A DNA stretch of 50,316 nucleotides. It comes from Lachnospiraceae bacterium. GTDB taxonomy: Bacteria > Bacillota > Clostridia > Lachnospirales > Lachnospiraceae. This document shows positions 23,355-44,651 of this stretch, piece after piece (position 1 is the stretch's first letter; every line of letters starts with the position of its first letter). Below the pieces are notes generated by a model. The model worked only from the letters and a program-made list of their open reading frames with translations. It made no database searches and was not told the DNA's origin. Made by a program: the position numbers and the translations under genes. The stretch spans positions 1 through 50,316 of the forward strand of contig JAFUGL010000068.1 in the NCBI GenBank assembly GCA_017469405.1. The letters are read 5' to 3'.

Positions 23355-25097
23355 TTAATGTGCAAATTGTGCGTTATAGAGGTTGCTATAGAAGCCATTT
23401 AAGGCAAGAAGTTCCTCATGTGAGCCTTTTTCGATTATATTACCATCCTTCATGACAAGGATGATATCAGCCTCCTTGATGGTGGAAAGTCTGTGCGCAA
23501 CCACAAAGCTGGTTCTGCCCTCCATCATCTTGTTAAAGGCTTTTTGAATACGTATTTCTGTTCTTGTATCGATAGATGAGGTAGCCTCATCCAAAATAAG
23601 CATAGGCGGCATAAGAAGCATAACTCTCGTTATGCATAAAAGCTGCTTTTGACCTTGGGACAGATTGCCTCCATCCTCGGTGATTACAGTATCGTAACCA
23701 TTTGGAAGTCTCTTAATAAAGCTGTGAGAATGAGCCTTCTTCGCAGCCTCGATAACCTCTTCATCAGTTGCATCAGGCTTACCATAGGTGATATTGTCCC
23801 TGATGGTACCTGTCTTAAGCCACGTCTCCTGAAGCACCATACCGTAATTATCACGAAGACTCTCTCTGGTCATATTCCTTATATCAGTTCCATCCACACT
23901 TATACTACCTGCATTTACATCATAAAATCTCATCAAAAGATTGATAAGAGTACTCTTGCCACAGCCGGTAGGTCCTACTATCGCAACCCTCATACCAGGC
24001 TTAACCAGTAAATTAAGATGCTCGATAAGCTTCTTATCCTCTGTATATGAAAATGATACATCATCTATAACTATCTCGCCTTTTGCCTTATCAAGTACCC
24101 TTGCATCCGCCGGTTCACTAACCTCACCCGGCTCGTCTATAAGCTCAAATACCCTGCCTGCACAGGCGATGGCATTTTGAAGCTCTGTTATAACATTTGA
24201 TATCTCATTAAAAGGCTTGGTATACTGATTGGCATAGCTTAAAAAGCTGGTAAGTCTTCCGACAGAAAGCTTACCGCGAAGCACAGCAAATGCACCGATT
24301 ATACCAACAGCTGCATAAACCAATCCGTTTACAAATCTTGTGGATGGATTGACAAGCGAGGAATAAAAGGTTGCATTCATACTATCCTTCTCAAGCTTAT
24401 CATTTATAACTGCAAATCTTTCCAGAGCATCCTCCTCGTAACCAAATGCCTGGACTATCTTTTGTTCACCGATCATTTCATCCACAAGCTCTGTAAGCTC
24501 GCCTCTTGACTCCGACTGACCTCTGAAAAGCTTGTAGGTTCTCTTTGCTATAAATGCAGCCACAAAAAGCGAAAGCGGCGTAAGCACAACTACCACAAGT
24601 GCTATAGACACATTTAGATAAAGCATAAAACAAAGTGTTCCGACTATCGTTACAACACCTGTGAAAAGCTGTGAAAAACCCATCAAAAGTCCGTCTGCAA
24701 ACTGGTCTATATCTGTAACTATCCTGCTTACGATATCTCCGTGTGCATTGGAATCTATATAGGAAAGCGGCATATCTGAAAGGTGATTAAAAGCCTCAAT
24801 CCTTATATCCTTAACAACCATATATGTTATACGGTTATTGATTATACTCATGATCCACTGGGCAAGTGCCGTTATGCCCACTACAATCAAAAACTTAACT
24901 ATGATTTCCCTTATCCCGTCAAAATCAACCTCTCCCGGTTTAACTATAAGATTTATGGCATCACCTGTAAGTATTGGAGCATAAAGTGTCGCGATAACGG
25001 ATACAAACGCACATGCAAATGAAAGTACTACCCAAAAGGTGTACTTTTTTATGTGCTGCATTATTCTTTTTAAAATCCATGAATTATTCTTATTCAT
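23355..25097 (-). CDS. ABC exporter subunit (permease-ATPase fusion), canonical Walker B half
   Basis: 580 residues: an N-terminal six-helix exporter domain (about 15-300) and a C-terminal ATPase. Walker A is GPTGCGKST (about 374-382), the signature is LSQGQKQ (about 477, with Gln in place of Gly), Walker B is LILDEATSS with the catalytic Glu (about 502), and the switch His is in VAHRLST (about 531). It forms a pair with the next gene upstream (47-bp gap). In a heterodimer this half supplies the intact Walker B/His side and the altered signature. The substrate is unknown: family members export drugs, lipids or peptides. It is the last gene of the long minus-strand run that includes the zinc-ribbon genes. 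Confidence 0.92.
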   Translation of the reverse strand: MNKNNSWILKRIMQHIKKYTFWVVLSFACAFVSVIATLYAPILTGDAINLIVKPGEVDFDGIREIIVKFLIVVGITALAQWIMSIINNRITYMVVKDIRIEAFNHLSDMPLSYIDSNAHGDIVSRIVTDIDQFADGLLMGFSQLFTGVVTIVGTLCFMLYLNVSIALVVVVLTPLSLFVAAFIAKRTYKLFRGQSESRGELTELVDEMIGEQKIVQAFGYEEDALERFAVINDKLEKDSMNATFYSSLVNPSTRFVNGLVYAAVGIIGAFAVLRGKLSVGRLTSFLSYANQYTKPFNEISNVITELQNAIACAGRVFELIDEPGEVSEPADARVLDKAKGEIVIDDVSFSYTEDKKLIEHLNLLVKPGMRVAIVGPTGCGKSTLINLLMRFYDVNAGSISVDGTDIRNMTRESLRDNYGMVLQETWLKTGTIRDNITYGKPDATDEEVIEAAKKAHSHSFIKRLPNGYDTVITEDGGNLSQGQKQLLCITRVMLLMPPMLILDEATSSIDTRTEIRIQKAFNKMMEGRTSFVVAHRLSTIKEADIILVMKDGNIIEKGSHEELLALNGFYSNLYNAQFAH

Positions 25098-25144
25098 ATC
25101 AAACTATCCTTTAAAGCATGTTCAATTGTTGCCAAACAAAACTT

Positions 25145-26911
25145 CTACGCCTTTTCCTTATTTTGCGAATAATAAATCTCCTTGTATACCTCACACGATG
25201 AAAGCAGCTCATCATGTGTTCCAAGTCCCACAACCTTACCATCATCAAGAACTACTATCTTATCCGCATACATAATCGAAGTAGCTCTCTGTGAAACCAT
25301 AAATACCGTTGTATCCTTTATCTTTTCTTTTATCGCCATACGAAGTGCCGAATCCGTCGCATAATCAAGTGCGGATGAACTGTCATCAAGTATGAGGATT
25401 TCAGGACGTTTAACCAGAGCTCTAGCAATTGTAAGCCTCTGCTTTTGACCGCCGGAAAGATTCTTTGCACCACGATTAAGCTTAAAAGATGTGCCACCCT
25501 CTTTTTCATCCACAAAGGACTTTGCCTGAGCGATGTCCAAAGCAAGCTCTATATCCTCTCTGGTTGCATCTTCCTTTCCCCATCTGATATTGTCCTCGAT
25601 AGTTCCGCTAAACAATACCGCCTTTTGCGGAACCACACCTATCTTTTTGACCAGCTTATCCTTTGGATAATCCTTTACATCTATACCGTCTATAAGCACC
25701 TTACCCTCAGTACAGTCATAAAATCTCGGGATAAGATTTACAAGCGTGGATTTACCGGAACCGGTACCACCGATTATACCAACGGTTTCACCCTTATTAA
25801 CAATTAGATTCAAGCCTTCAATCGATGCTTCCTTTGCATGCTTATATGTAAGGCCTGTATTTATAAATTCAACCTTTGGAGCTATGTCCATATTATTGCT
25901 ATTTACATCTGTAACCTGCCTGTTCCATAGGTCGTTGCCAATATCTTCTGAACTCACATAAGCCTGACTGCTCTTCATATCAAACACATCACTGATACGT
26001 TTGGCACAGGCAACCGCCTTTGTCTCGGTTATGATAAGATTGGCCAGTTTTACAAGCTCCACAAGAATCTGCGACATATAATTGACAAGTGCATAAACAG
26101 AACCCTGTAGTATAAAACCATCTTCAACACGCTCTCCACCCTTCCAGATAAGTGCAGCTATAGAAAGGTTTATAACCACATAGGTAAGAGGATTTAAAAA
26201 TGAGTTAATCCTTCCAACAAATATCTGTCCCTTTGTCAACGCATTTGTAACATCATTAAATTCATTTTTTTCGTGAGTTTCCTGATTAAAGGCGCGAATC
26301 ACCCTGACACCCGACAGATTTTCGCGTGTCTTTAAGGTAACCTTATCAAGCTTTTGCTGAACCTTTTTATAAAGAGGAATCGAGACAAACATTATGCCAA
26401 AAACTATTACAAATAAAACCGGCAATGTTATAAGAAATACCAATGCAGCCTTTACATCCACCGTAAATGCCATTATCGTTGCGCCAAACACTATAAACGG
26501 TGAGCGCATAAAAAGCCTTAAGAACATATTTACTCCGGTCTGAACCTGATTTATATCACTGGTCATACGCGTAACAAGAGTCGATGCCCCTATCTCATCA
26601 ATCTCGGTATATGAAAGTGTTTCGATATGCTTAAATAAATCATATCTAAGCTCCTTACCTATGCTCATGGCAACCTTGGCAGAAAAATACTGGGCTGTTA
26701 TGGAACATACAAGTCCTATTATTCCAAGCGCAATAAGGACAAGCCCCATCCTGTATATATAGGGCTTGTCGTTATTATTGATACCATTATCAATTATTGC
26801 AGCCATAACCAGCGGCACAAGAAGCTCAAAGCTCGCCTCAAGCATCTTAAAAAGCGGTGCCAGTATAGCCTTCAACTTATAATTTTTAAAATATCCCAGT
26901 ATCCGTTTCAT
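25145..26911 (-). CDS. ABC exporter subunit (permease-ATPase fusion), degenerate-site half
   Basis: 588 residues with the same layout as its partner. Walker A is GGTGSGKST (about 380) and the signature is canonical LSGGQKQR (about 484). Walker B reads LILDDSSSALD, with Asp in place of the catalytic Glu (about 509), and the switch loop reads VSQRATS, with Gln in place of His (about 537). These changes are those known in heterodimeric exporters with one non-hydrolysing site. It starts only 15 bp after the stop of a zinc-ribbon membrane protein gene, its ribosome binding site lying in that gap, so it is very likely on the same transcript. Confidence 0.92.
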   Translation of the reverse strand: MKRILGYFKNYKLKAILAPLFKMLEASFELLVPLVMAAIIDNGINNNDKPYIYRMGLVLIALGIIGLVCSITAQYFSAKVAMSIGKELRYDLFKHIETLSYTEIDEIGASTLVTRMTSDINQVQTGVNMFLRLFMRSPFIVFGATIMAFTVDVKAALVFLITLPVLFVIVFGIMFVSIPLYKKVQQKLDKVTLKTRENLSGVRVIRAFNQETHEKNEFNDVTNALTKGQIFVGRINSFLNPLTYVVINLSIAALIWKGGERVEDGFILQGSVYALVNYMSQILVELVKLANLIITETKAVACAKRISDVFDMKSSQAYVSSEDIGNDLWNRQVTDVNSNNMDIAPKVEFINTGLTYKHAKEASIEGLNLIVNKGETVGIIGGTGSGKSTLVNLIPRFYDCTEGKVLIDGIDVKDYPKDKLVKKIGVVPQKAVLFSGTIEDNIRWGKEDATREDIELALDIAQAKSFVDEKEGGTSFKLNRGAKNLSGGQKQRLTIARALVKRPEILILDDSSSALDYATDSALRMAIKEKIKDTTVFMVSQRATSIMYADKIVVLDDGKVVGLGTHDELLSSCEVYKEIYYSQNKEKA

Positions 26912-26926
26912 AGTCTTATTCCTAAA

Positions 26927-28366
26927 TTATATCTTGGCTCCACACAGATAGCAGAACTTTGAACCTTCTTCAAGCATTGTTCCACAGCTTGGGCAATATA
27001 GAACCTTTACATTTTTATAACCCATCGCTTTTATCTGACCACAATTCTTACAACTTTTTGCGTCTTCATCATTTATTGTGTAGCAAGCCAAACATTCCCA
27101 AGTTTTCTTCTCTCTCTTAAGACTTGATGCTTCAAGGACACTTCCTGCTTTAACTTCCTTGCCATATGCATTCTCATCAGAGTCATCTTGTGAATCTGAT
27201 ACATCATTTCCTTTACTCTTGGCAAGTCTTTCATTCATTTCAGCAACGGCTCTATCCTTATCTTCTTTTTCCCTCTTTTCAGACTCATCTCTGGTCATAC
27301 CGCATGCACATGAGCCGACATAAGAATAATTAGCGGTCTTACAATTATAGCATATCCAGCCACCCTTTTTAAGTACAAATTCTCTGTCGCTTTGCTCTTT
27401 AGCCAACTCAAGCTTTGACTTAACCGGCGGGATCATACCAAGCGGCACCATACCCGGACCCATACCCCCAGGCTGACCATAGGCGGTCTGACCGTAAGGT
27501 GGTACACCGTAGCCGGTTGCACCATAAGGCGGAACTCCATAACCGGTTGATCCGTATGGCGGCATGCCATAGCCGGTTGCACCATAAGGCGGAACTCCAT
27601 AACCGGTTGATCCGTATGGTGACATACCATAGCCCATACTACCGTAAGCACCATATCCTCCCACAAAATGTTTTTCTCTTAAGAAGATATAGAGACCACA
27701 TGCGATGTGTATTCCGATAATAAGTGCTATACCGCCGCCACTCTGTGACCGAAGAGCACTTCCAAACACATCCGAAACATCTATATAATCTCCAAAATCA
27801 CTCTTTAACATATGCGACAAAATCAGTATACAGATTAGACTGGATAAATATACACCAAGAGGCACAAAGCTCTTTCCACCTATGACCTCTCCTCTATCTG
27901 CTTTCTTATAATTAATTCCCTCCGCATATATTGACGATACGACAAGAATAGCAGCTATTCCGATAACTACAAGATATTTTCCCAGTGATGAACCAAGATA
28001 TCTGAATGATGCAGAAAGCGAACCACCCGATAAATTATTTAAATAAATCAATAAAACAATAGCAGTGATCACATATCCTGTTGCAAATACATACATAGTG
28101 GTACCAAACTTGTTTACATCTTCTTTTATCATATATACAGCAGCTGCAAATGTGATGATTGCCGCGATTGCATAAATAATAATTGAAACCCATAAAATGC
28201 CTGCCGCCTGCCTATAATACTCTCCACCATATTGTTTGTATGGTTTAAGCTGGTCGAGTCCATCAAACCCATCAAAAACATAAGAGATATAGATAATCCC
28301 CATAATGCCCCATAAAATTGCTGCTATAAACTTAACTATATCCTTTCCTGCATAAGACTGCTGCAT
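26927..28366 (-). CDS. Polytopic membrane protein with Tyr/Pro/Gly repeat tail and three zinc-binding motifs
   Basis: 479 residues; not a named family to me. About six membrane helices fill residues 10-230. A low-complexity stretch follows (about 236-315) built on GYGVPPYGAT / GYGMPPYGST units. The cytosolic tail then has CYNCKTANYSYVGSCACG (about 338-355), a charged helix, CLACYTINDEDAKSCKNCG (about 418, a RanBP2-like zinc finger) and a final zinc ribbon CPSC...CYLC (458-475). The tail is clearly paralogous to that of the gene at 40666-41499, so the cluster is bracketed by two related proteins. It lies 15 bp before the ABC exporter. A role in assembling or sensing at the membrane is only a guess. 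Confidence 0.75.
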   Translation of the reverse strand: MQQSYAGKDIVKFIAAILWGIMGIIYISYVFDGFDGLDQLKPYKQYGGEYYRQAAGILWVSIIIYAIAAIITFAAAVYMIKEDVNKFGTTMYVFATGYVITAIVLLIYLNNLSGGSLSASFRYLGSSLGKYLVVIGIAAILVVSSIYAEGINYKKADRGEVIGGKSFVPLGVYLSSLICILILSHMLKSDFGDYIDVSDVFGSALRSQSGGGIALIIGIHIACGLYIFLREKHFVGGYGAYGSMGYGMSPYGSTGYGVPPYGATGYGMPPYGSTGYGVPPYGATGYGVPPYGQTAYGQPGGMGPGMVPLGMIPPVKSKLELAKEQSDREFVLKKGGWICYNCKTANYSYVGSCACGMTRDESEKREKEDKDRAVAEMNERLAKSKGNDVSDSQDDSDENAYGKEVKAGSVLEASSLKREKKTWECLACYTINDEDAKSCKNCGQIKAMGYKNVKVLYCPSCGTMLEEGSKFCYLCGAKI

Positions 28367-28428: not shown

Positions 28429-29421
28429 TTACGAATTGCTGCTTAACAGTGGTTTATTTTTATCCTTATATGCAAATGCATATAAAAGTACTAAGAAACA
28501 ATATCCAAAGAAATTACCTGCCATAAAGAACATTCCATCTGAAACATTATTTATCTGACCTATAGCCAATGCACCGAAAAACAATGCTCCACCTCCAAAT
28601 AACAGGTTAAGCCACAATGCCCATTTAAATCCTTTGATATTATATAACAGCATACATAAAAATATCAATATAGAAAGAACAACTAAAAATATACAGGCTG
28701 TTTGCGCTCTTTCGATATACTCCGGAACACCTTCATATCCATAATTTTTCAAATTATCTCCCCTTAAAGCAGAAATATAATTTTTGGTGATTATCAGGAA
28801 AAGGATACTTAATATCATTGCAATTACAGGATAGAAAAATGTATATAATACCCTCTCTGAAATAAGCAGTACTATATATGCCGCAATAGAAACAGCAATT
28901 AAAATCAAAACAATTTTTAATATACCGTATTCATATGTACGGAAAAAATCAGAATCATAATCATCTTTGTATCTTGGTAATGTCATTACAATAAATCCAG
29001 TAAACGGTGTAGCATTTATAAGAGTTCCAAGGATTGCAACAATATTTGCAAATATCTTTAGAAACTTTGTAAATTTTTCTTTCCTCCTGGCCTTCATCTC
29101 TTCTCTTACAGCAGGGTCATACGGATTTGGCTGTGCATATGGATTAGCCATCATATGCGGATTTGCCTGCATATATGGATTTGGCTGCGCATACGGATTT
29201 GGCTGCGCATACGGATTTGGCTGCGCATATTGACTCATCTGCGCATACGGATTTGGCTGCGCATATGAATCAGCACCCATATACAAAGCTGATTGCTCAT
29301 CCGGTTCAGCACTCATATACATTTCAGCTTGTGAAGTATCCTTAATTCTTTGTTCGGCGCCACACACCTTACAAAATTTACTTCCATCAGGTATTTCGCT
29401 ACCACATTGTGAACAAAACAT
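28429..29421 (-). CDS. Zinc-ribbon membrane protein with QPNPYA repeats
   Basis: 330 residues. The N-terminal zinc ribbon is MFCSQCG..PDGSKFCKVCG (Cys 3, 6, 17, 20). A low-complexity cytosolic linker (about 50-105) follows, with repeated QPNPYA / QANPYM units. About five membrane helices fill roughly 118-315. The ribbon is nearly identical in wording to those of the neighbouring genes, including at DNA level. The QPNPYA repeats resemble the tail of the protein at 40666-41499. No catalytic motif is visible. It lies in the middle of the co-directional zinc-ribbon run. Confidence 0.75.
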   Translation of the reverse strand: MFCSQCGSEIPDGSKFCKVCGAEQRIKDTSQAEMYMSAEPDEQSALYMGADSYAQPNPYAQMSQYAQPNPYAQPNPYAQPNPYMQANPHMMANPYAQPNPYDPAVREEMKARRKEKFTKFLKIFANIVAILGTLINATPFTGFIVMTLPRYKDDYDSDFFRTYEYGILKIVLILIAVSIAAYIVLLISERVLYTFFYPVIAMILSILFLIITKNYISALRGDNLKNYGYEGVPEYIERAQTACIFLVVLSILIFLCMLLYNIKGFKWALWLNLLFGGGALFFGALAIGQINNVSDGMFFMAGNFFGYCFLVLLYAFAYKDKNKPLLSSNS

Positions 29422-29467: not shown

Positions 29468-30466
29468 TCATTCAGATACTTTATTTCCACATACATAACA
29501 AAACTTTGCATTATTGTTTAATAAAGTACCACAGCTTTTACATTTATTAATCATTTTAGTATTATTCATTGTTGGATTTTTAAATGTATTCAAAGGCGGA
29601 TAGTTAATTGGCTGACCGGGCACAGTTCCCATCGGCGGATAACCCATAGTCTGACCCGGCATAGTTCCCATCGGTGGATAACCCATAGTCTGACCCGGCA
29701 TAGTTCCCATCGGCGGATAACCCATAGTCTGACCCGGCATGGTTCCCATCGGCGGATAGCCGGTAGTCTGCCCCGGCATGGTTCCCATCGGCGGATAACC
29801 ATAATAACCTGCATAACCGATATATGAACTCTCTTTTTCCATGAAATAGATATATAAACCTGTCAAAGAAAGAATTCCCACCCAGATTAAATTTTCACCA
29901 AATCCATTTATAATAAGTGAGTCGGTACCATCTGATTTAGAACTGAAAAAAATCACTCTGCAAAGCACACCACCAAGATAGATAAGCACCGGAATAAAAA
30001 TCTTTATGTCATATCTTTGTCCCTCGTCTGATTTTTTGCAATAAAATCCCATAACAACAATCGAACCATACATAAGAGCATACATAAGCAATCCACCCAC
30101 AGTAAAATTCGATCCAAGCCTTGATAAAGATCCTAACAACGATTTAAGATAAACAACTACTGCAACAACAATCGCTGTTGCAAAAACAGCATACACAATA
30201 GTAAAGATTCCATACTTATTCAGCTGACGAATAACCAATACATATGCACAAATAACCGAAATAACAGCAAGGCATACCATGATAAAAATCTCAAACTTCA
30301 ATATTTTAACCGCTTTATCTTCGCTGCCATAACCATAATGCCTTACAGATTCCTCGTATTCTTTAATAATTTTTGTACTATCAACTATCTTAATAATATG
30401 TCTTATAGCTACTACAACCCACAGTATTGCCACCGCAAATCTTGTTATGTCACTTTTTTTATACAT
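29468..30466 (-). CDS. Polytopic membrane protein with 13-residue tandem repeats and C-terminal zinc ribbon
   Basis: 332 residues. About six membrane helices (roughly 8-225) precede a run of 13-residue units GYPPMGTMPGQTM (about five copies, about 226-290). The protein ends in a zinc ribbon CKSCG...CYVCGNK (about 309-327). Compared with its neighbours the order is reversed: ribbon at the C-terminus, as in the proteins at 26927 and 40666. The 39-bp DNA units are almost identical, so copy number could vary between strains without frameshift. The function is unknown. Confidence 0.75.
   Translation of the reverse strand: MYKKSDITRFAVAILWVVVAIRHIIKIVDSTKIIKEYEESVRHYGYGSEDKAVKILKFEIFIMVCLAVISVICAYVLVIRQLNKYGIFTIVYAVFATAIVVAVVVYLKSLLGSLSRLGSNFTVGGLLMYALMYGSIVVMGFYCKKSDEGQRYDIKIFIPVLIYLGGVLCRVIFFSSKSDGTDSLIINGFGENLIWVGILSLTGLYIYFMEKESSYIGYAGYYGYPPMGTMPGQTTGYPPMGTMPGQTMGYPPMGTMPGQTMGYPPMGTMPGQTMGYPPMGTVPGQPINYPPLNTFKNPTMNNTKMINKCKSCGTLLNNNAKFCYVCGNKVSE
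29592..29800. repeat. 39-bp tandem repeats inside a coding region
   Basis: About five near-identical 39-bp units share ATCGGCGGAT at exact 39-bp spacing (for example 29631 and 29670). Each encodes 13 residues, so gain or loss of a unit keeps the frame. The repeats form the cytosolic Pro/Gly/Met-rich segment of the host membrane protein. Confidence 0.8.
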
Positions 30467-30498: not shown

Positions 30499-32358
30499 TT
30501 ATTCCACCTTATGATTGTAGTACATCGACCAATAATTTACGCCGTCTATATTTTTCAGTTGCATTTTAGCTTCATACTTTTCTATTTCTTCATCAATATC
30601 GTATTCCGGATCAGGAACTTTATTATAGGTTATATAATAAAATGTGCCGTCCGTTTTAACCGTTTCTATTTCCAATAAATCTCCAATCCAACCGATTCCA
30701 CCAATCATAAAATACAAACGACCGTTTTCTATATAACTCTCATTTTCATCAAGCAGTTTATTTAAAAGAATATCATAATCTCCTTCTTTTACATTAAATA
30801 TATTAACAGCCACCCACTTAAGTCCCTCAAGTGATACATGATTATATCCCATATTGTGCCAAGGTGAATTTTCATCCGATAAGTATCCGCGCGGATCATC
30901 AACCTCTCCCCATACAGTTTCAAGATCATATAAAGGATATAAGCTATTGTCAACACATATAAAAGGAGAAACTAGGTGATATAATAAATCAAAGTTTCCA
31001 CTTAATACTTGCTCACTGTCATAATAACGCTCATAATTACCGTCTCTGTATATGTCCATTTGGTTAAAAAAACTTACAAGCGCATCATATTCCGGCAGAT
31101 CTGATATAGATATCTCCCATGGTTCTACCGGCACGGGCTCTGTATCAAATAAATTAACGCCGTCAGCTATAGGCTGATCCGGTTCATCAACATCAACATT
31201 TACTTCATCTAACTTTTCATAATCCTCTGTTGTCATCTTACTGTCAATCGAAAAGAGCAAAGAATCAGGCAGCCCCCACTTGGTCATATAGCTGTTTAAC
31301 AATTCCCTTGAACCAAATATAGTAACGGATGTAAACATATATCCGTCTCTTGAATACCAATAGTCTACTTTTACAAGGAAATCATTTGTACTGCCTATAT
31401 ATTCACCATCTTTATTCATACCTGTAAGCTTGCTGATTTCTTTTGCAAATAGAAGTCTTGACTTCAGCAAATCATCAAAATTTCCGGCTTTTAAAGGCAT
31501 ATCATCATATAAATCCTTTAAAGCCTGTTTGTTTTCTTCCTTACTTCTATCAAAAAAACCTGAATAAAATCTATCCGGAAAAACTATTCCCGCCGGATAA
31601 TCAAGTCCTGTAAAACCGTCCTGTAAAAATTTGTCATAATCCGACTCTACTTCATCAAGAGATATCTCTCCGTTTTTATCATATAATTTGCTGTAGCTGC
31701 TGGAACCATCACAATAATATCCTGCTTTTTCAAGATCGGAAGGTGTAGATTTAGCACTTGTACCATCAGCAAATTTAAAACTCGCATTATTATAAAAACA
31801 TATACTGATTGCTCCATTATGTACAACCGAATCATTACCCAAATTAACTATTGGTCTTGTAACTATTATGTTCTGTTTTTTATTTTCATCATCTTGTGAA
31901 AAGGAAGAAATGAGTTGTCCATCCTTATAATAATCGTATGTAGGATTTATATCATTTGACTTAAATACAACTCCATCATTAAGCTTACTTAAGTTTGATA
32001 ATCCATCCTCATAGGTTATATCACAACGCGTTCCATTTACGGTAACATACGAGCCACTGCTCTTTTTACCTTTTATAAAATATATAGTTAAAAATGTACC
32101 GATACCTATAACAGCGAGTACACATACAGCAATCCATACCTTTGCCCAGGTTGGAAGTTTCTTTTTAGAAGCCTTTTTTTGCTTACCACTATCCGCACTT
32201 GAAGGCTGCGACTCCGGTACATAATTTTGCTGATACTGCTGCCCGTTGTCAGGCTGTGCATTATGTTCGCTCATCTGCGGTACTATAAGCTTCGCTCCAC
32301 ATACATTACAAAATTTACTTCCATCAGGAAGATTTGCCCCACACTCATTACAAAACAT
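30499..32358 (-). CDS. Zinc-ribbon single-pass membrane protein, extracytoplasmic family A
   Basis: 619 residues. The zinc ribbon MFCNECG..PDGSKFCNVCG (Cys 3, 6, 17, 20) is followed by a Gln/Ser-rich linker, a membrane helix at about 71-95 (WIAVCVLAVIGIGTFLTIYF) and a long domain outside the cell. That domain opens with YVTVNGTRCDI..DGLSNL. It later has an acidic patch, EPWEISISDLPEYDALVSF (about 410) and ends NIDGVNYWSMYYNHKVE. The same domain occurs in 34752-36782, 36838-38772 (in part) and 38804-40621. No enzyme motif is visible. The Lys-flanked helix and positive-inside rule put the ribbon in the cytoplasm. Confidence 0.75.
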   Translation of the reverse strand: MFCNECGANLPDGSKFCNVCGAKLIVPQMSEHNAQPDNGQQYQQNYVPESQPSSADSGKQKKASKKKLPTWAKVWIAVCVLAVIGIGTFLTIYFIKGKKSSGSYVTVNGTRCDITYEDGLSNLSKLNDGVVFKSNDINPTYDYYKDGQLISSFSQDDENKKQNIIVTRPIVNLGNDSVVHNGAISICFYNNASFKFADGTSAKSTPSDLEKAGYYCDGSSSYSKLYDKNGEISLDEVESDYDKFLQDGFTGLDYPAGIVFPDRFYSGFFDRSKEENKQALKDLYDDMPLKAGNFDDLLKSRLLFAKEISKLTGMNKDGEYIGSTNDFLVKVDYWYSRDGYMFTSVTIFGSRELLNSYMTKWGLPDSLLFSIDSKMTTEDYEKLDEVNVDVDEPDQPIADGVNLFDTEPVPVEPWEISISDLPEYDALVSFFNQMDIYRDGNYERYYDSEQVLSGNFDLLYHLVSPFICVDNSLYPLYDLETVWGEVDDPRGYLSDENSPWHNMGYNHVSLEGLKWVAVNIFNVKEGDYDILLNKLLDENESYIENGRLYFMIGGIGWIGDLLEIETVKTDGTFYYITYNKVPDPEYDIDEEIEKYEAKMQLKNIDGVNYWSMYYNHKVE

Positions 32359-32405: not shown

Positions 32406-33233
32406 TTAATATCTGATTTCCACACTCATTTTTCCTATAAGCTCATGTGTATCATCACGATAAACCTTTACGGTTTCCGTTCCTTTTTTAACATTGGATG
32501 CATCATCATATCCAAAACTTATCCAAAGATAATCGTCCGAACCTCTATCAGTGTCAAAAACACCAAAGCTCGTATATCCATCAGTACCTGTTATTCTATA
32601 GCTTAACGGAATTTTCTCTCCGGATGAAAGTCCACCTATCTGGAAATGATAATATCTTGTAGTACTTCTGCTTATTTCACTTAAATTAGTAAAATTATCA
32701 CCGGACGACGTATTTACGGCAACATTGTATATATATGTTGTACTTGAATATACTTCCTCTTTTGTTTCTTTCTCGACTTCCTGTTTATCTTCTGTTGTGG
32801 TTGCAACCGTGGTTACATCATCTCTGTCTGTTGTAGCAACTTCGGTTTTATTATTATTTTCTAACGCCTTATCATTGGAATCATCCTGACTTTTCTTTGA
32901 AAAAGGATTTAATACAAATATAACGATAACAACTGCCGCAACAATTGTTCCTATTATTTCACCGATTATAATCCCTTTCTTTGCACCACTATTTTGTCTT
33001 TCATTTATTTTCATTTTATCATTATTATTAACACTGTTATAATCACCCGATGTATTATCAAGAGAGTAATCATCGCTATAATAGCTTGTATCGGGCTGTA
33101 TCTGCTGTTCTGCCTGCTCATAACTTATCTGATTTTCTGTGTTTTCATTTTCATGTATTCGCTGTTTGGCACCGCATGCATTGCAGAATTTACTTCCGTC
33201 AGGTAATTGAGTTCCACATTGATTACAAAACAT
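32406..33233 (-). CDS. Zinc-ribbon single-pass membrane protein, extracytoplasmic family B (short form)
   Basis: 275 residues: zinc ribbon MFCNQCG..FCNACG, a linker rich in Asn/Asp/Gln/Ser, a membrane helix at about 88-108, a Thr/Glu-rich stalk and a domain of about 110 residues outside the cell. The last contains YNVAVNTSSGDNFTNLSEIS, RYYHFQIGGLSSGE and a C-terminal MSVEIRY. It matches the middle part of the protein at 33300-34640 (YIINAVVNTSENDIITNMER, RYYHFELQGLEYGE), so the two define a second extracellular domain family. The fold is unknown, but all-beta, Ig-like character seems likely from the alternation. Confidence 0.72.
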   Translation of the reverse strand: MFCNQCGTQLPDGSKFCNACGAKQRIHENENTENQISYEQAEQQIQPDTSYYSDDYSLDNTSGDYNSVNNNDKMKINERQNSGAKKGIIIGEIIGTIVAAVVIVIFVLNPFSKKSQDDSNDKALENNNKTEVATTDRDDVTTVATTTEDKQEVEKETKEEVYSSTTYIYNVAVNTSSGDNFTNLSEISRSTTRYYHFQIGGLSSGEKIPLSYRITGTDGYTSFGVFDTDRGSDDYLWISFGYDDASNVKKGTETVKVYRDDTHELIGKMSVEIRY

Positions 33234-34640: not shown

Positions 34641-34751
34641 TTTTCTTTCCTCCGTTTTTGCGACATGGTGACAGGCATCACATTCCACCCTATCCCATAT
34701 ATTGCTTTCACAATTATAATATAAATTATAATTGAAATAAACCCTCAAAAA

Positions 34752-36837: not shown

Positions 36838-38772
36838 TCAAAAGAATGGGGTTATGCTATCCTTGTAGATTGACCAATATCCCTTACCATCAATTATCTT
36901 GTACTCCAGTTCAGCATAGTGTGTTCCTATAAACTCATCTCCCTCTCCATATGTGTATAAGTCATAGGTTATATGATATCTCTCTCCATTGAACTCAACA
37001 GATTTAATTTGAGGAACAAAGCCTCCGCCTACACCTCCTACGTAAGCATAATAGTTTCCATCATAAAAGTAATAATATGAATCAACATTATCCTTAGCAG
37101 CTTGTATCATATCATCATTCCAGTTATAGACATTCTTAAATACAAAATCAGCCCTATATCCATCAATCCCATAAGCATATTCAAATTTATTAAGAGGGTC
37201 CATTACCTCATCACTGATATATACATTATCATAATAATGTATATTATAAAGTCCTATATCAATATTAAAGAATGAAGAATAAAATCTGTCATAATCTATA
37301 TATCCTTCGCAGTCGTAATCTTCTCCTCGTTTACTATACCAGCCAAAATTACCCAGAAAATCATCAATTCCCTCCGGCAGATTAGCTATATCATATGGCT
37401 CATATGATGTTACCGGAACTTCTGTAGTAGATTCATCATTACCCTCTTCTTCGGGTATATCAGCTCCCGGTCTTATCTCAATATAAGGATCGTAAACCTC
37501 AATAGTTGCATCCTCTTGAGTATCATAATGTTCGGTGGTTATCTTGGCATCTGAAACATAAAATGTACTATCTGGTAATCCCCACTTTGTCATATAGTCG
37601 TTCAGTTTTTCATGCGGAGCATATATTGAAATTAATGTACATGTATCTCCTGAAGCACTAATACCAACATCAACTCTGACGAGAAAGTCACTTGTTGCTC
37701 CAACATATTCATTATTTTTCATACCGGACAGCTTTGAAGCTTCCTTTGAGAAAAGAAGCTTGAATTTAAAATAATCATCAAAATCACTAATACCACTTAC
37801 ATCAAGCTTTGATGAATATGCATCTATCAAAGCTCTTCGTCTTTCATCTTTATTAAAATACGGACTGCTTGCCGCAATCAAAATCTTATCCTCCGGAAAA
37901 CCCGGTGATAAATTATAATCGACACCATTGTTATAATTCTCAAGAAAAGCCTCATAATCAGAATTAATGCTATCAAGGGCAATCTCACCATTCTTATCGA
38001 AAAGTTTACTATACATATAAAAGTCAGAATACTTGCTAGTATATATATATCCATTTTTTTCACAAGCTTCCTTTGATGCTTTGCTTCCAATACCGTCTGA
38101 TAATTCAAACTCAGCACCATCCGTTACGGTTATTTGCAAGCACCCAATTCTCCTTTTGATACTATCAAAATGCAAAGCGCCTTGCTTTTCAACCATTACA
38201 TTGACATCATTTGGTTCTACATTTGATATGAAATTTCCATTTTTATAAAGATCACAACTATACGCACCATTCCTACTATATGTTAATACTATGCCATCTT
38301 CAATCTTATCAAGGTTGGATATGCCATCCTCGTCGTTTATCTCGCACTTTATGCCATCTATGGTTACATAAACCGGTTTACCGTTTTTCTTACCCTTTAT
38401 AAAATGTATCGTTAAAAATGTTGCAACACCAACCACTGTAAGTACGCAAACTGTTATGAGTACCTTTACCCACATTGGAAGCTTCTTCTTCGATGTCTTC
38501 ACTGGCTTGACTTTCCTATCGTTAATAGGCTGTGACTGCTGTACATAGCCTGATTGCATCTCCTGCTGATATGACCGGTCGTAGCTTGATTGTACAGCTT
38601 GTCTTGACTGCTCGTAACCGGACTGTAAATTTTGTTGTCCATCATAACTATAGCCTGTCTGCATCGGCTGTGCTGCCTGTCCACTCTCTTGCAGAGAAAT
38701 CATCTTCGCTCCACATATGCTGCAAAATTTACTTCCATCAGGGAGCTCTGCTCCACATACATTACAATACAT
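36838..38772 (-). CDS. Zinc-ribbon single-pass membrane protein, family A with divergent C-terminus
   Basis: 644 residues: zinc ribbon MYCNVCG..FCSICG, Gln/Ser/Tyr linker, membrane helix (about 97-118, VLITVCVLTVVGVATFLTIHF) and an outer domain. The first two thirds of the outer domain matches family A. The stretch PDSTFYVSDAKITTEHYD is identical to the protein at 38804-40621. After IRPGADIPEEE it departs from its relatives: the EPWEIS/PEYDAL and final WSMYYNH parts are replaced by a different C-terminal sequence ending GKGYWSIYKDSITPFF. This mosaic suggests recombination among paralogs. Confidence 0.75.
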   Translation of the reverse strand: MYCNVCGAELPDGSKFCSICGAKMISLQESGQAAQPMQTGYSYDGQQNLQSGYEQSRQAVQSSYDRSYQQEMQSGYVQQSQPINDRKVKPVKTSKKKLPMWVKVLITVCVLTVVGVATFLTIHFIKGKKNGKPVYVTIDGIKCEINDEDGISNLDKIEDGIVLTYSRNGAYSCDLYKNGNFISNVEPNDVNVMVEKQGALHFDSIKRRIGCLQITVTDGAEFELSDGIGSKASKEACEKNGYIYTSKYSDFYMYSKLFDKNGEIALDSINSDYEAFLENYNNGVDYNLSPGFPEDKILIAASSPYFNKDERRRALIDAYSSKLDVSGISDFDDYFKFKLLFSKEASKLSGMKNNEYVGATSDFLVRVDVGISASGDTCTLISIYAPHEKLNDYMTKWGLPDSTFYVSDAKITTEHYDTQEDATIEVYDPYIEIRPGADIPEEEGNDESTTEVPVTSYEPYDIANLPEGIDDFLGNFGWYSKRGEDYDCEGYIDYDRFYSSFFNIDIGLYNIHYYDNVYISDEVMDPLNKFEYAYGIDGYRADFVFKNVYNWNDDMIQAAKDNVDSYYYFYDGNYYAYVGGVGGGFVPQIKSVEFNGERYHITYDLYTYGEGDEFIGTHYAELEYKIIDGKGYWSIYKDSITPFF

Positions 38773-38803: not shown

Positions 38804-40621
38804 TTATTCAACTAAATGATTTGAATACATCGACCAATAATTCTTGCCGTCTATATTTTTTATTTCCATTTCAGCTATGTATGCTTCTTTTACATTATCA
38901 CTATTAGGATCCCAATCAGGTACTTTTTTGTATACTATGATATATCTTGTGCCATCAGTCCTAACTGACTGAATCTCAGGATTGTAAGGCACTACCTCTT
39001 CTCCCAAAGGATAGATTGCATAGTAATATCTTCCGTTTTCATAATATGAACTTGCACAGTCAGATGAAGCATTAGCCAAAGCTTCATAATCCTCATCAGA
39101 TACATTAAATATATTTTGGGCAATCCATCTCAATCCATATTCTGACACTGAACGATAACCCATCCATTCTGTGTCGGGGTCATTCGTATATCCACGTGGA
39201 TCAGCCGGGTCTCCTTTGGAAGACCTCGCTTCTTCAAGATCATATACATCATCATATAAACCATATCGCGTAATACATCCTTGATATCCCATAATATTCC
39301 ATAAAATATCAGAATTTCCATCTGCAGCTGTACTGCTATCATACTCACATTCATAGTTTATATCACGATACCATTCAAACTCTTTCAAAAATAAAATCAG
39401 CGCATCATACTCCGGTATATCCGACACTGAAATCTCCCAAGGTTCTACCGGCTGCTGTGGTGTTTCCTCCTCTTCTGTAGGTATATCAGCTCCCGGTCTT
39501 ATCTCAATATAAGGATCGTAAATCTCAATAGTTGCATCCTCTTGAGTATCATAATGTTCGGTGGTTATCTTGGCATCTGAAACATAAAATGTACTATCAG
39601 GTAATCCCCACTTTGTCATATATTCATTTAATTTATCTTTAGGTCCATATATTGAAATTGTTGTGTGATCATATTTATCTGAAGAAAACCAAAAATCAAC
39701 TTGAACAAGAAAATCTTTTTTGCTGCCTACATATTCGCCGTCTTGCATTCCTGTCAGATTTGCAAGTTCTCTTGACAATAGCAACCTATATTTAAATAAT
39801 GAATCATAATCATAGTCTGATCCTAATCCGCCACAAGTATTAATAATTTCTCTTCTATTTTCCTCTTTAGTTCCACTAAAGGTTAATTGTGAGAAATTAT
39901 AATCAAATCCTCTTATTTCATATCCAATACCGGCTTTTCCTGATTCGAGAAACTTTTCATAATCAGAGTTAATACTATCAAGTGTAATCTCTCCATTTTC
40001 ATCGAACAACTTACTATATTTGATATTACTTTGATTTACATATCCTGCTTTTTCAAGCTCATATTTTGATGATTTGTTACTCACTCCATCAGAAAAATCA
40101 AAATCAGTTTTTTCATTTATATTTATATTTAAAACCTCAATATGTACAATATCATCATTTATATTGCCTATTTCGCCTTTTTCAACATATACGTCTGCAT
40201 CAAAAACAGGTACAGGGTTTACTTTTTCACCATCTTTATACAGACTACATCCCATACCGTTGAAAACAACACCATCATTAACTTTATCAAGGTTGGAAAC
40301 ACCATCTTTATCATTTATTTCGCACTTAACGCCTTTTATGGTTACATAAGCGGGAGTTCCCTTTTTCTTACCCTTTATAAAATGTATCGTTAAAAATGTT
40401 GCAACACCAACCACTGCAAGTACGCAAACTGTTATTAGCGCTTTATCCCATATCGGCAGTTTTTTCTTTGAAGGTAAATTTTGTTGTTCATCATAACTAT
40501 AGCCTGTCTGCATCGGCTGCGCTGCCTGTCTGCTTTCTTGCAGTGAAATCATCTTCGTTCCGCATACGCTGCAAAATTTACTTCCATCAGGAAGCTCGGC
40601 TCCACATTCATTACAATACAT
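38804..40621 (-). CDS. Zinc-ribbon single-pass membrane protein, family A (short linker)
   Basis: 605 residues. Zinc ribbon MYCNECG..FCSVCG, a linker shortened to about 30 residues (others have 50-90), membrane helix at about 54-78, and the complete family A outer domain ending NIDGKNYWSMYSNHLVE. It is the intact reference for the interrupted gene at 34752-36782. The short linker looks like a deletion in the Gln-rich segment. An ATGGAGGAATG site precedes the start. Confidence 0.77.
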   Translation of the reverse strand: MYCNECGAELPDGSKFCSVCGTKMISLQESRQAAQPMQTGYSYDEQQNLPSKKKLPIWDKALITVCVLAVVGVATFLTIHFIKGKKKGTPAYVTIKGVKCEINDKDGVSNLDKVNDGVVFNGMGCSLYKDGEKVNPVPVFDADVYVEKGEIGNINDDIVHIEVLNININEKTDFDFSDGVSNKSSKYELEKAGYVNQSNIKYSKLFDENGEITLDSINSDYEKFLESGKAGIGYEIRGFDYNFSQLTFSGTKEENRREIINTCGGLGSDYDYDSLFKYRLLLSRELANLTGMQDGEYVGSKKDFLVQVDFWFSSDKYDHTTISIYGPKDKLNEYMTKWGLPDSTFYVSDAKITTEHYDTQEDATIEIYDPYIEIRPGADIPTEEEETPQQPVEPWEISVSDIPEYDALILFLKEFEWYRDINYECEYDSSTAADGNSDILWNIMGYQGCITRYGLYDDVYDLEEARSSKGDPADPRGYTNDPDTEWMGYRSVSEYGLRWIAQNIFNVSDEDYEALANASSDCASSYYENGRYYYAIYPLGEEVVPYNPEIQSVRTDGTRYIIVYKKVPDWDPNSDNVKEAYIAEMEIKNIDGKNYWSMYSNHLVE

Positions 40622-40665: not shown

Positions 40666-41499
40666 TTACTCTTCAGTCTTTAGCTTATATCCGCATACAT
40701 TACAGAATTTATCTGTCGGTTCAATCTCACTTCCACAGCCCGGACAGTTATTTGGCGATATAGTCTTAAAGCCCATCGCCTTAATCTGACCGCAGCTTTT
40801 GCATATCTTTGCAGAATCCTTATTTAAATGATGACAGGTCAAGCATTCCCAAACCTTTTCATTTAATGCCATGGCTTTTTCTTCTTCCTTGACCTTTGCC
40901 ATTTTTTCTTCCAATTCTGCCACTGCTATTTTTTTATCAGCATATTTCTTTTCAGACTCATCTCTGCTCATACCACAAGAGCATGATCCAACATAAGAAT
41001 AATTCGCCTTCTGGCAGTTATAACAAATCCATCCACCCTTTTTAACAATAAAATCCTTTTCGGCCTGAAGCTCTGATTTAGTCTTACCATTTTCAATAGT
41101 AGCCATGACAGGTGCCGTGCCACCCATAGGCATACCCGGAGCAGCCTGCATATACGGATTTGGCTGTGCATATGGATTTGCCTGCTGATAAGGTGCAGCC
41201 GCATACGGATTTGCCTGTGTATATGGATTTGCCTGAGCATACGGATTTGCCTGCTGATAAGGTCCGTATTCAGGTGTAAGAAGCATCGGATTTATCGCAT
41301 ATGCAGTACCATTATGCTGATGTCTTGCTGCCTCATAAGGATACATATCGGCAAGACGTACAATCTCCGGTCCTCTCATATTTTTACTCTGACGCCTTGA
41401 ATTACCTATCGCATCAAAGCCCTTGTTCATAAGGTTGTTAAGTACGTATCTTAATAAATATATTACAAATACAAACGCTATCGCTATAACCCAAATCAT
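40666..41499 (-). CDS. Membrane-anchored protein with QANPYA repeats and three zinc-binding motifs
   Basis: 277 residues. A single N-terminal membrane helix (about 1-18) is followed by a basic segment and a low-complexity stretch of QQANPYAQ / TQANPYA units (about 77-117). Then come CYNCQKANYSYVGSCSCG (about 158), a charged helix, CLTCHHLNKDSAKICKSCG (about 218) and a final ribbon CPGCG...CNVCG. The last 140 residues match the tail of the protein at 26927-28366 almost motif for motif. The two flank the cluster and probably bind the same partner. GGGAGGAAT precedes the ATG. Confidence 0.77.
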   Translation of the reverse strand: MIWVIAIAFVFVIYLLRYVLNNLMNKGFDAIGNSRRQSKNMRGPEIVRLADMYPYEAARHQHNGTAYAINPMLLTPEYGPYQQANPYAQANPYTQANPYAAAPYQQANPYAQPNPYMQAAPGMPMGGTAPVMATIENGKTKSELQAEKDFIVKKGGWICYNCQKANYSYVGSCSCGMSRDESEKKYADKKIAVAELEEKMAKVKEEEKAMALNEKVWECLTCHHLNKDSAKICKSCGQIKAMGFKTISPNNCPGCGSEIEPTDKFCNVCGYKLKTEE

Positions 41500-41582
41500 T
41501 TTTATTCCTCCCGGTTTACATAACTTATAATCACATAAATCATATTCATAGTCATCATAGTAAAATCAGCCTAAAATTCATC

Positions 41583-42086
41583 CTAGAAAAATGATGATTT
41601 AGTCTTTATGTCAGTTACATATGTTCTTTCAACAACAGCATTGAAATCAAGCATAAGAAACGCCTTTTCAATGGCTGTAAGAAGTACATTTGAATCCATT
41701 CTGGCGGACATTTCTATAATGCCGTTTCTTTCCTTCCACTGATTTACTCTGAATTTATATAGGTGAACTCCCTCGATTTTGCTGTCACCTGCTGCTTTGA
41801 TTGATGCAGTAAAGGTGCCTGCAGAATTTCTGAATACAAGATTGTTTGCTCCCTTGCTTATGCTTATGCTTATGCCTTCCTGACTTAGAATTCCTCTGTC
41901 AAGTGCATTAAGCATTTTGTCAAGATTCGGAACTATTGTCTTAAAAGTATGCTCCTGTTCGTAAAAATCATATGCTCTGCTTTTATTGGCAGCTCCGCTG
42001 TCAAATAATTTATTGTTGCCTTTCGCTATAGCTATTCCTATAGCTACACTTACACCAAGTATAATAACTACTATTGCTGTTACCAT
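41583..42086 (-). CDS. Single-pass membrane protein of unknown function at the head of the zinc-ribbon operon
   Basis: 167 residues. An N-terminal membrane helix (about 2-22, IVVIILGVSVAIGIAIA) is followed by a soluble domain with FKTIVPNLDKMLNALDRGI and ISKGANNLVFRNS, ending TDIKTKSSFF. I do not recognise the family and see no catalytic or metal motif. It has a strong AAGGAGG site and is the first gene of the apparent operon running to 23355. Its upstream region (42087-42244) contains two copies of TTTGTCCGA on the coding strand. Confidence 0.65.
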   Translation of the reverse strand: MVTAIVVIILGVSVAIGIAIAKGNNKLFDSGAANKSRAYDFYEQEHTFKTIVPNLDKMLNALDRGILSQEGISISISKGANNLVFRNSAGTFTASIKAAGDSKIEGVHLYKFRVNQWKERNGIIEMSARMDSNVLLTAIEKAFLMLDFNAVVERTYVTDIKTKSSFF

Positions 42087-42183
42087 TTTCCTGCCTCCTT
42101 AAAATCATATAATTATTTATTTTTACAAATATTAACACCAAATAATAATTTTAATATATTTATCGTTCTGTTTCACTACCCTA

Positions 42184-42236
42184 TCGGACAAAACTTTCAG
42201 GTTAAAAATCTTTAAATCATTCAACAATCGGACAAA
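42184..42236 (-). promoter_or_regulatory. Two TTTGTCCGA motifs upstream of the zinc-ribbon operon
   Basis: On the minus strand, TTTGTCCGAT occurs at 42236-42227 and again at 42192-42183, 44 bp apart (about four helical turns). Both lie between the LuxR gene and the first gene of the operon. A third copy (TTTGTCCGAC) is at 49487-49478. They may be operator sites or part of promoters; no sigma factor consensus fits well. Confidence 0.35.
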
Positions 42237-42244
42237 TTTCGAAC

Positions 42245-42925
42245 TTATTTTCGATATTCATCAGAGTTTTCAGGTACGATAAGCTTCTTTACAACAGCAT
42301 TTGCTACAAGTGTTATGGCATTTTTGTAGCCTGTTTTCTTAAGCATGCTGCTTATCAGATATTTAACTGTGTTAATCTTTAAATCAAGTTTTTTGGTTAT
42401 ATCAGCATAAGAGCATCCGTTTGAAAGCTGCTCTATGACTGCTATATCCATATCAGTAAAATCTGAACTCTTACAATTGCCCAAAACTGTATTGTATCTA
42501 ATATCGTATTCTGCAAGCTTTTTACTTTCGTCATCAGTCAGCTCCCCGTAACGGCTTTCTTTATAAACCTCTTTTATTATCTTGGACACATCTCTGGTAT
42601 CCTTATTTCTATTCCAAAAATACATATTTTCCGTATCTATATAGCTTCTTGACATAGGATATATAGGATAATCTGACATAATAATAACACGTATTTTTGT
42701 TTCACTTTTGATTTCTCCGGCAAGTCCTATACTTGAGAGTCCGTATCTCATATAAGCATTTATAAGGAGAACATCCGCTTCCTCGTCCTTGCACGCTTCC
42801 TTAACCTCACTCAAATCTCCTAAAACCTTCACAATACTGATGGTATCATCCGATGCCAGCTTGTCACAAAGCCACTCTGTTATGATTCTTGACTCATCAG
42901 CAATGATTACTTTTATTTCATTCAT
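42245..42925 (-). CDS. LuxR-type regulator with degenerate receiver domain
   Basis: 226 residues from the ATG at 42925 (MNEIKVIIADESRI), which has AAAGGACGAG upstream; an earlier in-frame ATG at 42973 lacks a site. The N-terminal receiver-like domain keeps the first acidic pocket (ADES), but where the phospho-acceptor Asp is expected it reads ADVLLINAYMRYG, with Asn. The C-terminal helix-turn-helix (about 165-225) has the LuxR pattern DMDIAVIEQLSNGCSYADIT and LKINTVKYLISSMLKKTGYK. No histidine kinase is adjacent. It probably acts without phosphorylation. It is divergent from the membrane winged-helix gene and directly upstream of the zinc-ribbon operon, which is its likely target. Confidence 0.82.
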   Translation of the reverse strand: MNEIKVIIADESRIITEWLCDKLASDDTISIVKVLGDLSEVKEACKDEEADVLLINAYMRYGLSSIGLAGEIKSETKIRVIIMSDYPIYPMSRSYIDTENMYFWNRNKDTRDVSKIIKEVYKESRYGELTDDESKKLAEYDIRYNTVLGNCKSSDFTDMDIAVIEQLSNGCSYADITKKLDLKINTVKYLISSMLKKTGYKNAITLVANAVVKKLIVPENSDEYRK

Positions 42926-43121
42926 AGCAATCACTCGTCCTTTCTCTAAAAATCCATCATACATTTTATCCAAAAGTTATTTTTTTGCGTTCAAGATAAA
43001 TTCATTTTTTCTTCTCGGAAGTGTTGAATTGCTCATTTTTCTTTGCTAAAATGTCCTTACGTCCGATTAATGACAAATTTGGTAATAAGCGGTCGAATAA
43101 TAATTTTTACGGGAGTTTTTT

Positions 43122-44651
43122 ATGTCTTTTACCAATATCGACTACAACGACAACCATTACAAATTAATATGGACAAGCGGTGAGCTTGAAGGTTTCTATA
43201 TTGATTTTAAATATCAGGAAATCGGTTACAGAGAAAATGAACCTGAAAGAATTGAATTTAAAAAGCTGCAGATTATAAAATATCTCCTTGATCACTCCAC
43301 AGAGTATATCACGGGAACACAGATTAATCTCACGGAGGAGCTTAATTCAATTGATTTGCCAAAAAGTATCTCATCTATCAAAGCCAGCATATTAAGGGCT
43401 TTAAATCCCGAATTTGATAAAGAAAAGGCTTCGGATTTATATAATTTGATAATTGATAAACACAGGATAAACGGTCAGATGGGCTATAGGCTCATTACTT
43501 CTGATGCAGTTTTGTCAAATGTAGAAGTCTCAGATAATGAAAACATGAATCTTATCAATAAAGCAGCGTTTTCTTCTGAAAATAATAATACTTTAAATGA
43601 TGGGATTGCTGTAAATAATAAGATAAATATTGAAAAAGATGATAATTCATACGATGAGGAATCTTTTTCTTATATATCAAAAAACTGGTTTATGCTATTT
43701 ATAATAAGCTATATCATCCTTATGCTTTTATTTATCCTAAAGGCAAATGATATAAGTTTCGGACAGCTTTATAGGCATCTTGTAACGCTTCCGCTTAAAA
43801 CAAGCTTTTTAATATGTATATCGGGTGGCATACTTCCGGTTCTGGCAGGAATTATAATCGATACACCATTTGCACTTTTATCAAGTCACATAAAAACCGG
43901 CAAAAAGGCTGATATATCAAAATATCATCATATAGTAATGCACAAAGAAGGAAGATTTGATCTATCGATGCAGCATATTTCATTTTTTGCAATCTGCAAC
44001 CTTACAGGTGCCATCACTACCGCTGCCGCTATTCTTTTCGTTAAGAGAATACCTGATTTTGATACATATATTGAAAAAAGTAGTATGAATACGCCTCTTG
44101 CCATCATCACGTTTGCAGCTTTATTTGTTGCACTTTACAATAACTATATGCTTCAGACCAAGTCTGAGCCAAACAGAAACAATCACAATTATATACTTAC
44201 AAGAGCTCACGCATTTTTCAATTTCTTCTGGCTTACCTTTTCCATATCCGTAAGCTGTGGGCTTTTATTTGCATTTTTACTTTTCAGAATCAGCAGCTCA
44301 TATGCTACTCCGGACTCTTTGGATTCATCATTTTTGATAATGATTCTTGCAGCATACTCATATCTTTGGTTTTCTGCCGATTCGCCTTTAGCCAAGGATA
44401 TCGATTCCATAAGCAAGGACAATTTTGTATCAGGTGCACCGGTGCTTGCATTCTTTTCGATACTTTATACAATACTTTGCTTTGATATGTCGATGACCTG
44501 CATACTCTCCTTTACAATCAATATACTGGTGCTTATAGTCTGGTACATAGTTTTAAAAAAGCGCAAAAGTATAGGTGTAATAAGATTTATAACCTCATTT
44601 TTCTCTGTTATAGCTGTTTTCGTAATTCTTATGTTGGTTTTGAATTTATAA
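43122..44651 (+). CDS. Membrane-bound winged-helix regulator with multi-pass C-terminus
   Basis: 509 residues. The N-terminal 125 residues read like an OmpR/ToxR-type winged helix: FKKLQIIKYLLDHSTEYITG, a recognition-helix region around LPKSISSIKASILRALNP and the closing wing INGQMGYRLI. An Asn/Asp-rich linker (about 130-185) leads to about eight or nine membrane helices (about 188-508). There is no receiver or kinase domain. The layout recalls ToxR/CadC one-component sensors, but those have a single helix and an outer domain; here the sensing part is all membrane. It is divergent from the LuxR gene. A GGGAG site precedes the ATG. Confidence 0.7.
   Translation: MSFTNIDYNDNHYKLIWTSGELEGFYIDFKYQEIGYRENEPERIEFKKLQIIKYLLDHSTEYITGTQINLTEELNSIDLPKSISSIKASILRALNPEFDKEKASDLYNLIIDKHRINGQMGYRLITSDAVLSNVEVSDNENMNLINKAAFSSENNNTLNDGIAVNNKINIEKDDNSYDEESFSYISKNWFMLFIISYIILMLLFILKANDISFGQLYRHLVTLPLKTSFLICISGGILPVLAGIIIDTPFALLSSHIKTGKKADISKYHHIVMHKEGRFDLSMQHISFFAICNLTGAITTAAAILFVKRIPDFDTYIEKSSMNTPLAIITFAALFVALYNNYMLQTKSEPNRNNHNYILTRAHAFFNFFWLTFSISVSCGLLFAFLLFRISSSYATPDSLDSSFLIMILAAYSYLWFSADSPLAKDIDSISKDNFVSGAPVLAFFSILYTILCFDMSMTCILSFTINILVLIVWYIVLKKRKSIGVIRFITSFFSVIAVFVILMLVLNL

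Follow-up and report, generated by a model that had tools for sequence, protein, structure and literature searches.

What might a long array of zinc-ribbon membrane proteins be doing beside an ABC exporter, and do the array and the exporter form one unit? The question arises from a contig of the 2.75-Mb assembly of a Lachnospiraceae bacterium, hereafter the window, which designates the whole stretch of 50,316 nucleotides analysed here. An earlier note on this DNA had described about ten ribbon-bearing membrane genes feeding into an exporter, with two unusual regulators at their head. Each part of that description was examined, and the locus was compared with its relatives in the same genus and beyond.

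From position 42973 down to 23355, the minus strand carries a LuxR-like gene, a gene that we call p167, ten ribbon genes (one broken) and the ABC pair. A further gene, wHTHm (43122..44651, plus strand), is divergent from the array. Downstream of the ABC pair, positions 12172-23181 encode a giant surface protein of the SpaA/FctA type, about 3,640-3,669 aa long. The listing of open reading frames bore out the positions given in the earlier note; the start of A_447 lies at about 34640 and not at 34748. All ten genes between 26927 and 41499 are co-directional, and each encodes a zinc ribbon (PF13240 or PF12773 matches) together with hydrophobic segments, the zinc-ribbon match of PMc_332 lying only under the curated cut-off. 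The expected combination of ribbon and membrane helices thus holds for these ten but not for p167 (41583..42086, minus strand), which has one N-terminal hydrophobic segment and neither a CxxC ribbon nor a known domain. More than half of the PF13240 matches in the assembly fall within the array: 10 of 19 at E up to 0.001, and 9 of 16 above the curated cut-off. Cassette genes are separated by 31-83 nt, with about 110 nt ahead of A_447 and 158 nt between the LuxR-like gene and p167, and GGAGG-like sites are found upstream of them.

The ribbon proteins fall into three kinds. Four B-type genes, all on the minus strand, share an N-terminal Cys4 ribbon, one hydrophobic segment and a two-part outer region: B_605 (38804..40621), B_644 (36838..38772), B_619 (30499..32358) and a broken gene (34752..36782). 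In the broken gene, one in-frame stop falls at codon 553 out of 676, and the part beyond it is still recognisable. B_619 is the closest match of the single B gene present in two relatives of the same genus, G026 and G030 (78-80%). The two A-type genes, A_447 (33300..34640, minus strand) and A_275 (32406..33233, minus strand), have an anchor similar to that of the B type and a different outer domain, to which A_447 adds an extra C-terminal domain. They match at 41% over A_275 residues 69-275. Outer domain A is indeed common to these two proteins, but it is absent from the A proteins of relatives that were aligned; elsewhere in the genus, weak matches were seen in G027 and G028 (29-31%).

The other four ribbon proteins, again on the minus strand, are polytopic or anchored and contain Tyr/Pro/Gly repeats. 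Two carry three ribbons: T3zn_277 (40666..41499), with an N-terminal anchor, NPY repeats and three Cys4 ribbons, and T3zn_479 (26927..28366), with six hydrophobic segments, Tyr-Gly repeats and three C-terminal ribbons. PM_330 (28429..29421) combines an N-terminal ribbon with NPY repeats and about six hydrophobic segments, and PMc_332 (29468..30466) is polytopic with Tyr-Pro repeats and one C-terminal ribbon. The N-terminal half of T3zn_277 resembles the N-terminal part of a ribbon-less polytopic protein of G026 and G030 (53-54%), and in PM_330 a ribbon occupies the place of that part. Modules of the cassette have evidently been exchanged between proteins. Searching the outer parts of A and B against Pfam (E up to 10) returned only a weak DUF3857 match (E 0.053). 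The predicted structure of A had a mean pLDDT of 33.6, and that of B gave no strong structural match; residues 394-605 of B_605 aligned weakly with cystatin, VirB8-like and NTF2-like chains. Two other genera also have the second outer part of B, with no ABC pair adjacent to it, in a 1382-aa protein (G254) and in a ribbon protein (G196).

The distribution of the cassette was then compared with that of the exporter across 37 genomes of the genus. A full-length triple-ribbon tail protein (T3zn) was found in four of them. In G026 it lies in two pieces on two contigs, the second of which begins inside the triple-ribbon gene; this genome is counted as a carrier across both, and we infer that they join. 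Its order is wHTHm (divergent), LuxR, p167, A, B, polytopic and triple-ribbon, followed on the second contig by ABC1 and ABC2. G030 is intact from p167 through ABC2, and G001 has polytopic, B, A, triple-ribbon, ABC1 and ABC2. The expectation that the set stays together across genomes is thus borne out for a core of A-type, B-type, polytopic and triple-ribbon tail genes beside the ABC pair in four genomes, but not for the regulators, which are not universal. Considering the four-gene sets of the relatives, the array of the window is an expanded form of a four-gene core.

The exporter is far more widespread, as ABC1 was matched at E up to 1e-200 in 35 of the 37 genomes. The locus comparison covered 34 of these 35 (all but G015). 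In 26 of the 34 loci, a divergent DUF1292 gene lies 90-628 nt from ABC1 with no cassette between; in the window this gene (44801..45112, plus strand) bounds the insertion site on its other side. The remaining eight comprise the four loci with the cassette, one in which no DUF1292 was found (G014) and three in which the contig ends too early (G010, G024 and G016). The distance from DUF1292 to ABC1 is usually 90-400 nt, reaching 628 nt in G009 and 615 nt in G012. The extra sequence holds a 153-aa frame in G009 (L138:7443-7904) and is a long gap in G012 (L139:9326-9940). In a quick tree built from ABC1 and ABC2, the carriers fall in one group of six together with G029, which has no cassette, and G010, where the contig ends. 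Since the carriers group with the cassette-free G029, a single gain followed by loss in G029 is possible.

The exporter itself consists of ABC1 (25145..26911, minus strand), core to the genus, and its partner ABC2 (23355..25097, minus strand). Both match PF00664 and PF00005, so that the pair shows the layout of heterodimeric ABC exporters, two adjacent half-transporters with membrane and ATPase domains. The motif residues are DD and Q in ABC1 and DE and H in ABC2, a pattern that we take to be that of exporters with one degenerate site. No NCBIfam model scored above its curated cut-off among the 25 listed of 210 for one subunit and the 25 listed of 197 for the other, and the pair is accordingly left without assignment to a particular exporter type.

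As the earlier note had stated, the exporter follows closely on the last ribbon gene of the window, ABC1 starting after a junction of 15 nt (26912..26926, minus strand). In the three other carriers, the interval between the triple-ribbon gene and ABC1 measures about 150 nt and looks almost the same in all three, whereas the genes differ more. It contains a hairpin, then a T-rich stretch, then a sigma-70-like promoter site, TTGAAA-16-TATAAT. Folding energies of the hairpin are -30.2 (G030), -30.6 (G001) and -31.5 kcal/mol (G026), with z values of -4.5, -5.8 and -5.1, respectively. An automated terminator scan did not list this hairpin, whose loop probably exceeds the length that the scan allows. 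The junction stretch of the window has no such fold (z +1.1) and also lacks the TTGAAA-16-TATAAT box; it keeps the ribosome-binding stretch AGGAATAAGACT, as in G010. In 15 of the 34 rows of the comparison, the region upstream of ABC1 has no promoter box of the kind seen in the relatives. Therefore the absence of the box in the window alone proves little, and the 15-nt spacing and the missing hairpin weigh more.

The view of the array as feeding into the exporter as one unit finds no support in that form: the pump is core and occurs cassette-free, and a hairpin and a promoter-like site stand between the two in three of the four carriers. Because the window is without a segment that those three have kept, the single operon appears to be a local fusion. 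The simplest reading of these junctions is that a deletion in the lineage of the window joined the pump to the cassette, which in the window appears joined to the pump's transcription.

The LuxR-type gene at the head of the array (42245..42973, minus strand; likely start near 42934) had been described as receiver-defective, and the alignment agrees: an Asn replaces the Asp of the aligned response regulator (LLIN in the query, AILD in the target), so the phosphoacceptor Asp expected of a phosphorylated LuxR response regulator was not found in this protein. The LuxR-like protein of G026 likewise has Asn at this position. The divergent wHTHm protein had been called a winged-helix polytopic protein. 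Its polytopic character is supported by eight hydrophobic segments, which follow an N-terminal domain in a simple hydropathy scan, but the winged helix was seen by eye only. A Pfam search (E up to 10, HMMER filters on) gave no match, and comparison with solved structures gave one, to a histone chaperone at E 1.1. The protein is a candidate membrane regulator; a place among the OmpR/ToxR-like membrane regulators, which are marked by an N-terminal winged helix, would be putative, the pattern being seen by eye and with no useful Pfam or structure match. Two regulators stand at the head of the cassette in the window and in G026, but G030 has only fragments (wHTHm residues 444-504 and LuxR residues 1-56) and the G001 locus shows no trace, with no significant match to wHTHm, LuxR or p167. 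A search of the whole G001 assembly, which is 75% complete, did not find wHTHm either. Within the genus, wHTHm was matched in three of 37 genomes (G000, G026 and, as the fragment, G030).

Among 396 other family genomes sampled, relatives of wHTHm were found in two, both belonging to one other genus. When six genomes of this second genus were considered, three had a wHTHm relative and all six had an ABC pair. The order ABC1, ABC2, ribbon-bearing membrane gene was present in five of the six; the ribbon gene is polytopic in four of these and has only two hydrophobic segments in G422. The wHTHm relative is directly next in two genomes and follows three other frames in the third. Thus the neighbourhood of regulator relative, ribbon-bearing membrane gene and ABC pair does recur. 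The C-terminal, membrane part of wHTHm is conserved across the two genera (28-30%) and its N terminus is not; the ABC pairs are about 35-39% identical and at most putative orthologues. In a third genus, the gene after an ABC exporter pair encodes a ribbon protein with one hydrophobic segment (L187:4919-9478). When 45 ribbon loci from outside the cassette were sampled, this was the only one with an ABC exporter within a flank of about 1.5 kb, indicating that such pairing is rare in general. For ribbon-bearing membrane proteins as such, 110 of 299 family genomes gave matches, the majority of them to the ribbon end.

Rates of change were calculated between the window and G026, several dS values exceeding 1. 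Ribbon proteins were 61-81% identical with dN/dS of 0.15-0.28, the ratio for the triple-ribbon protein being based on the first 288 aligned codons only. p167 (79% identity) and wHTHm (88%) both gave 0.16. Lower ratios were obtained for LuxR (95% identity, 0.06), for ABC1 and ABC2 (about 95%, 0.05) and for DUF1292, DMT and LysR (about 94%, 0.03-0.04). The giant adhesin (70% identity) reached 0.18 and lipo336 (66%) 0.10. All ratios are below 1, which indicates purifying selection, with no sign of diversifying selection. With wHTHm at 0.16, the giant adhesin at 0.18 and lipo336 at 0.10, quick change is not peculiar to the cassette. Comparison of B_605, B_644 and the broken B gene revealed identical runs of 75, 65 and 66 nt in DNA that is otherwise 63-72% identical. 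The maxima obtained in 1000 codon-block shuffles were 35, 56 and 35, and the observed runs exceed all of them. B_619 had no such run with the other B paralogues. To judge by these sequences, the array of the window was multiplied by duplication together with an exchange resembling gene conversion.

The nearest worked-out case by anatomy appears to be TcaA. In the available portions of the published accounts, TcaA has a single membrane span, a predicted intracellular zinc finger and a large outer part (PMC10328498); its gene adjoins a regulator gene and an efflux gene and is tied to wall teichoic acid and to sensitivity to wall-attacking agents (PMC10328498; PMC10611510). Like TcaA, A_275, A_447 and the four B genes have an N-terminal zinc ribbon ahead of one membrane span in the hydropathy scan. 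Unlike tcaRAB, the window has an array of ribbon proteins instead of one, and an ABC pump instead of an MFS pump. As to the TcaA trait of a regulator and an efflux gene in one transcription unit, the genes are closely spaced in the window, and in the three relatives the hairpin and promoter-like site lie between. Pfam holds TcaA models, and none of the TcaA-named ones matched the window proteins or the outer parts of A and B in this Pfam scan. The likeness is thus probably one of layout, no kinship having been detected in sequence.

Other ribbon proteins were also considered. YdjG and YdjL, of the PspA-linked ydj operon, are described as combining a ribbon, a membrane segment and an NTF2-like domain (PMC11237479), and the weak NTF2-like alignment of B_605 recalls them, though the same residues align with cystatin and VirB8-like chains. 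In the parts of that account available, YdjG has two ribbons and the system includes PspA and TPM partners; no PspA or TPM-domain partner was found among 18 window proteins scanned. YvbJ-type proteins carry an N-terminal ribbon on a membrane protein (PMC13377840) and are likened here by description only, the available parts of the accounts mentioning neither an array nor an ABC pair.

On the basis of the TcaA-like anatomy, we propose an envelope-sensing or protection module for which the exporter is a recurrent but optional partner. Put in full, the locus would be an accessory, fast-evolving array, working in the manner of TcaRAB, inserted between DUF1292 and the core heterodimeric ABC pair and recurrently placed beside an exporter; we give this reading a probability of about 0.45. 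The ribbons, which the sequence shows joined to variable further domains through a single hydrophobic segment or several, would be cytosolic and zinc-binding. The outer domains might sense or bind either constituents of the envelope or molecules that attack it, and the ribbons might serve to dock these proteins to each other or to a partner, for instance the triple-ribbon protein. Expression would be set by the membrane regulator and the pseudo-receiver LuxR protein in those genomes that have them. Within that response, the exporter could export or clear a substrate, a role that the efflux gene next to tcaA may also play; in the window, where the terminator and promoter are missing, the pump would come under cassette control. 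A bolder version, which we consider unlikely, is a new type of envelope module in which ribbon-docked, interchangeable membrane proteins with exchangeable outer domains and triple-ribbon hubs would serve an ABC exporter under the control of a polytopic membrane regulator of a new class, one that is conserved between genera in its membrane part and swapped at its presumed DNA-binding end.

The site could instead be nothing but an insertion hotspot, where cassette and pump share a place and not a function, the joined layout of the window being an accident of deletion. That most genus genomes have the pump without the cassette speaks for this, as do the terminator-like hairpin and promoter-like site between the two in three carriers and the long intervals of G009 and G012. 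It accounts less well for the second genus, where ABC pair, ribbon gene and regulator relative are close together in a different context, or for the ABC pair and ribbon gene of the third, such neighbours being so rare in the sample. We regard a mere shared site as doubtful, yet a possibility to be taken seriously.

The array might also be a receptor or decoy system, its variable outer domains conferring immunity to phages or bacteriocins. The locus is lineage-specific, duplicated and mosaic and changes faster than its core neighbours, as such a system might. Against this, a PADLOC search with nine proteins gave no match but one weak one (E 0.025), no relatives of wHTHm or T3zn_479 were found on plasmids, and none of wHTHm on viral contigs; we consider an immunity role decidedly improbable. 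A further proposal would have the array work in surface display, as substrates of the giant surface adhesin or as accessories to it. In all four carriers, a giant SpaA-type protein with a similar rate of evolution is encoded downstream of ABC2, but in G029, G009 and G012 an adhesin-like gene lies downstream of the pump although no cassette is present. Adhesins of this type are Sec-exported and sortase-anchored, which also argues against the proposal, and we hold it to be very improbable.

Ribbon-bearing membrane proteins are widespread in the family, and for most of them there is no explanation. Within one clade a natural series is available, from an empty site through a small cassette without regulators, a cassette with regulators and one with decayed regulators to an expanded array joined to the pump. 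With this series, comparison and transfer into a laboratory host could be used to test what the ribbons do and how they are linked to the exporter.

Some further frames were observed near the locus or in the window's own genome. Related frames, presumably transposase-like or Rpn-like, lie near the locus in different genomes, at 49762-50211 of the window and at L027:14452-15414. The window's own genome encodes a ribbon protein about 34% like the first half of the B proteins (L074:5031-6029). It also contains a cluster of Gln/Asn-rich proteins (L072:5172-13175) that are without an N-terminal ribbon and weakly like A_447 around the hydrophobic segment, and frames similar to this cluster occur in L075, L076 and L077.
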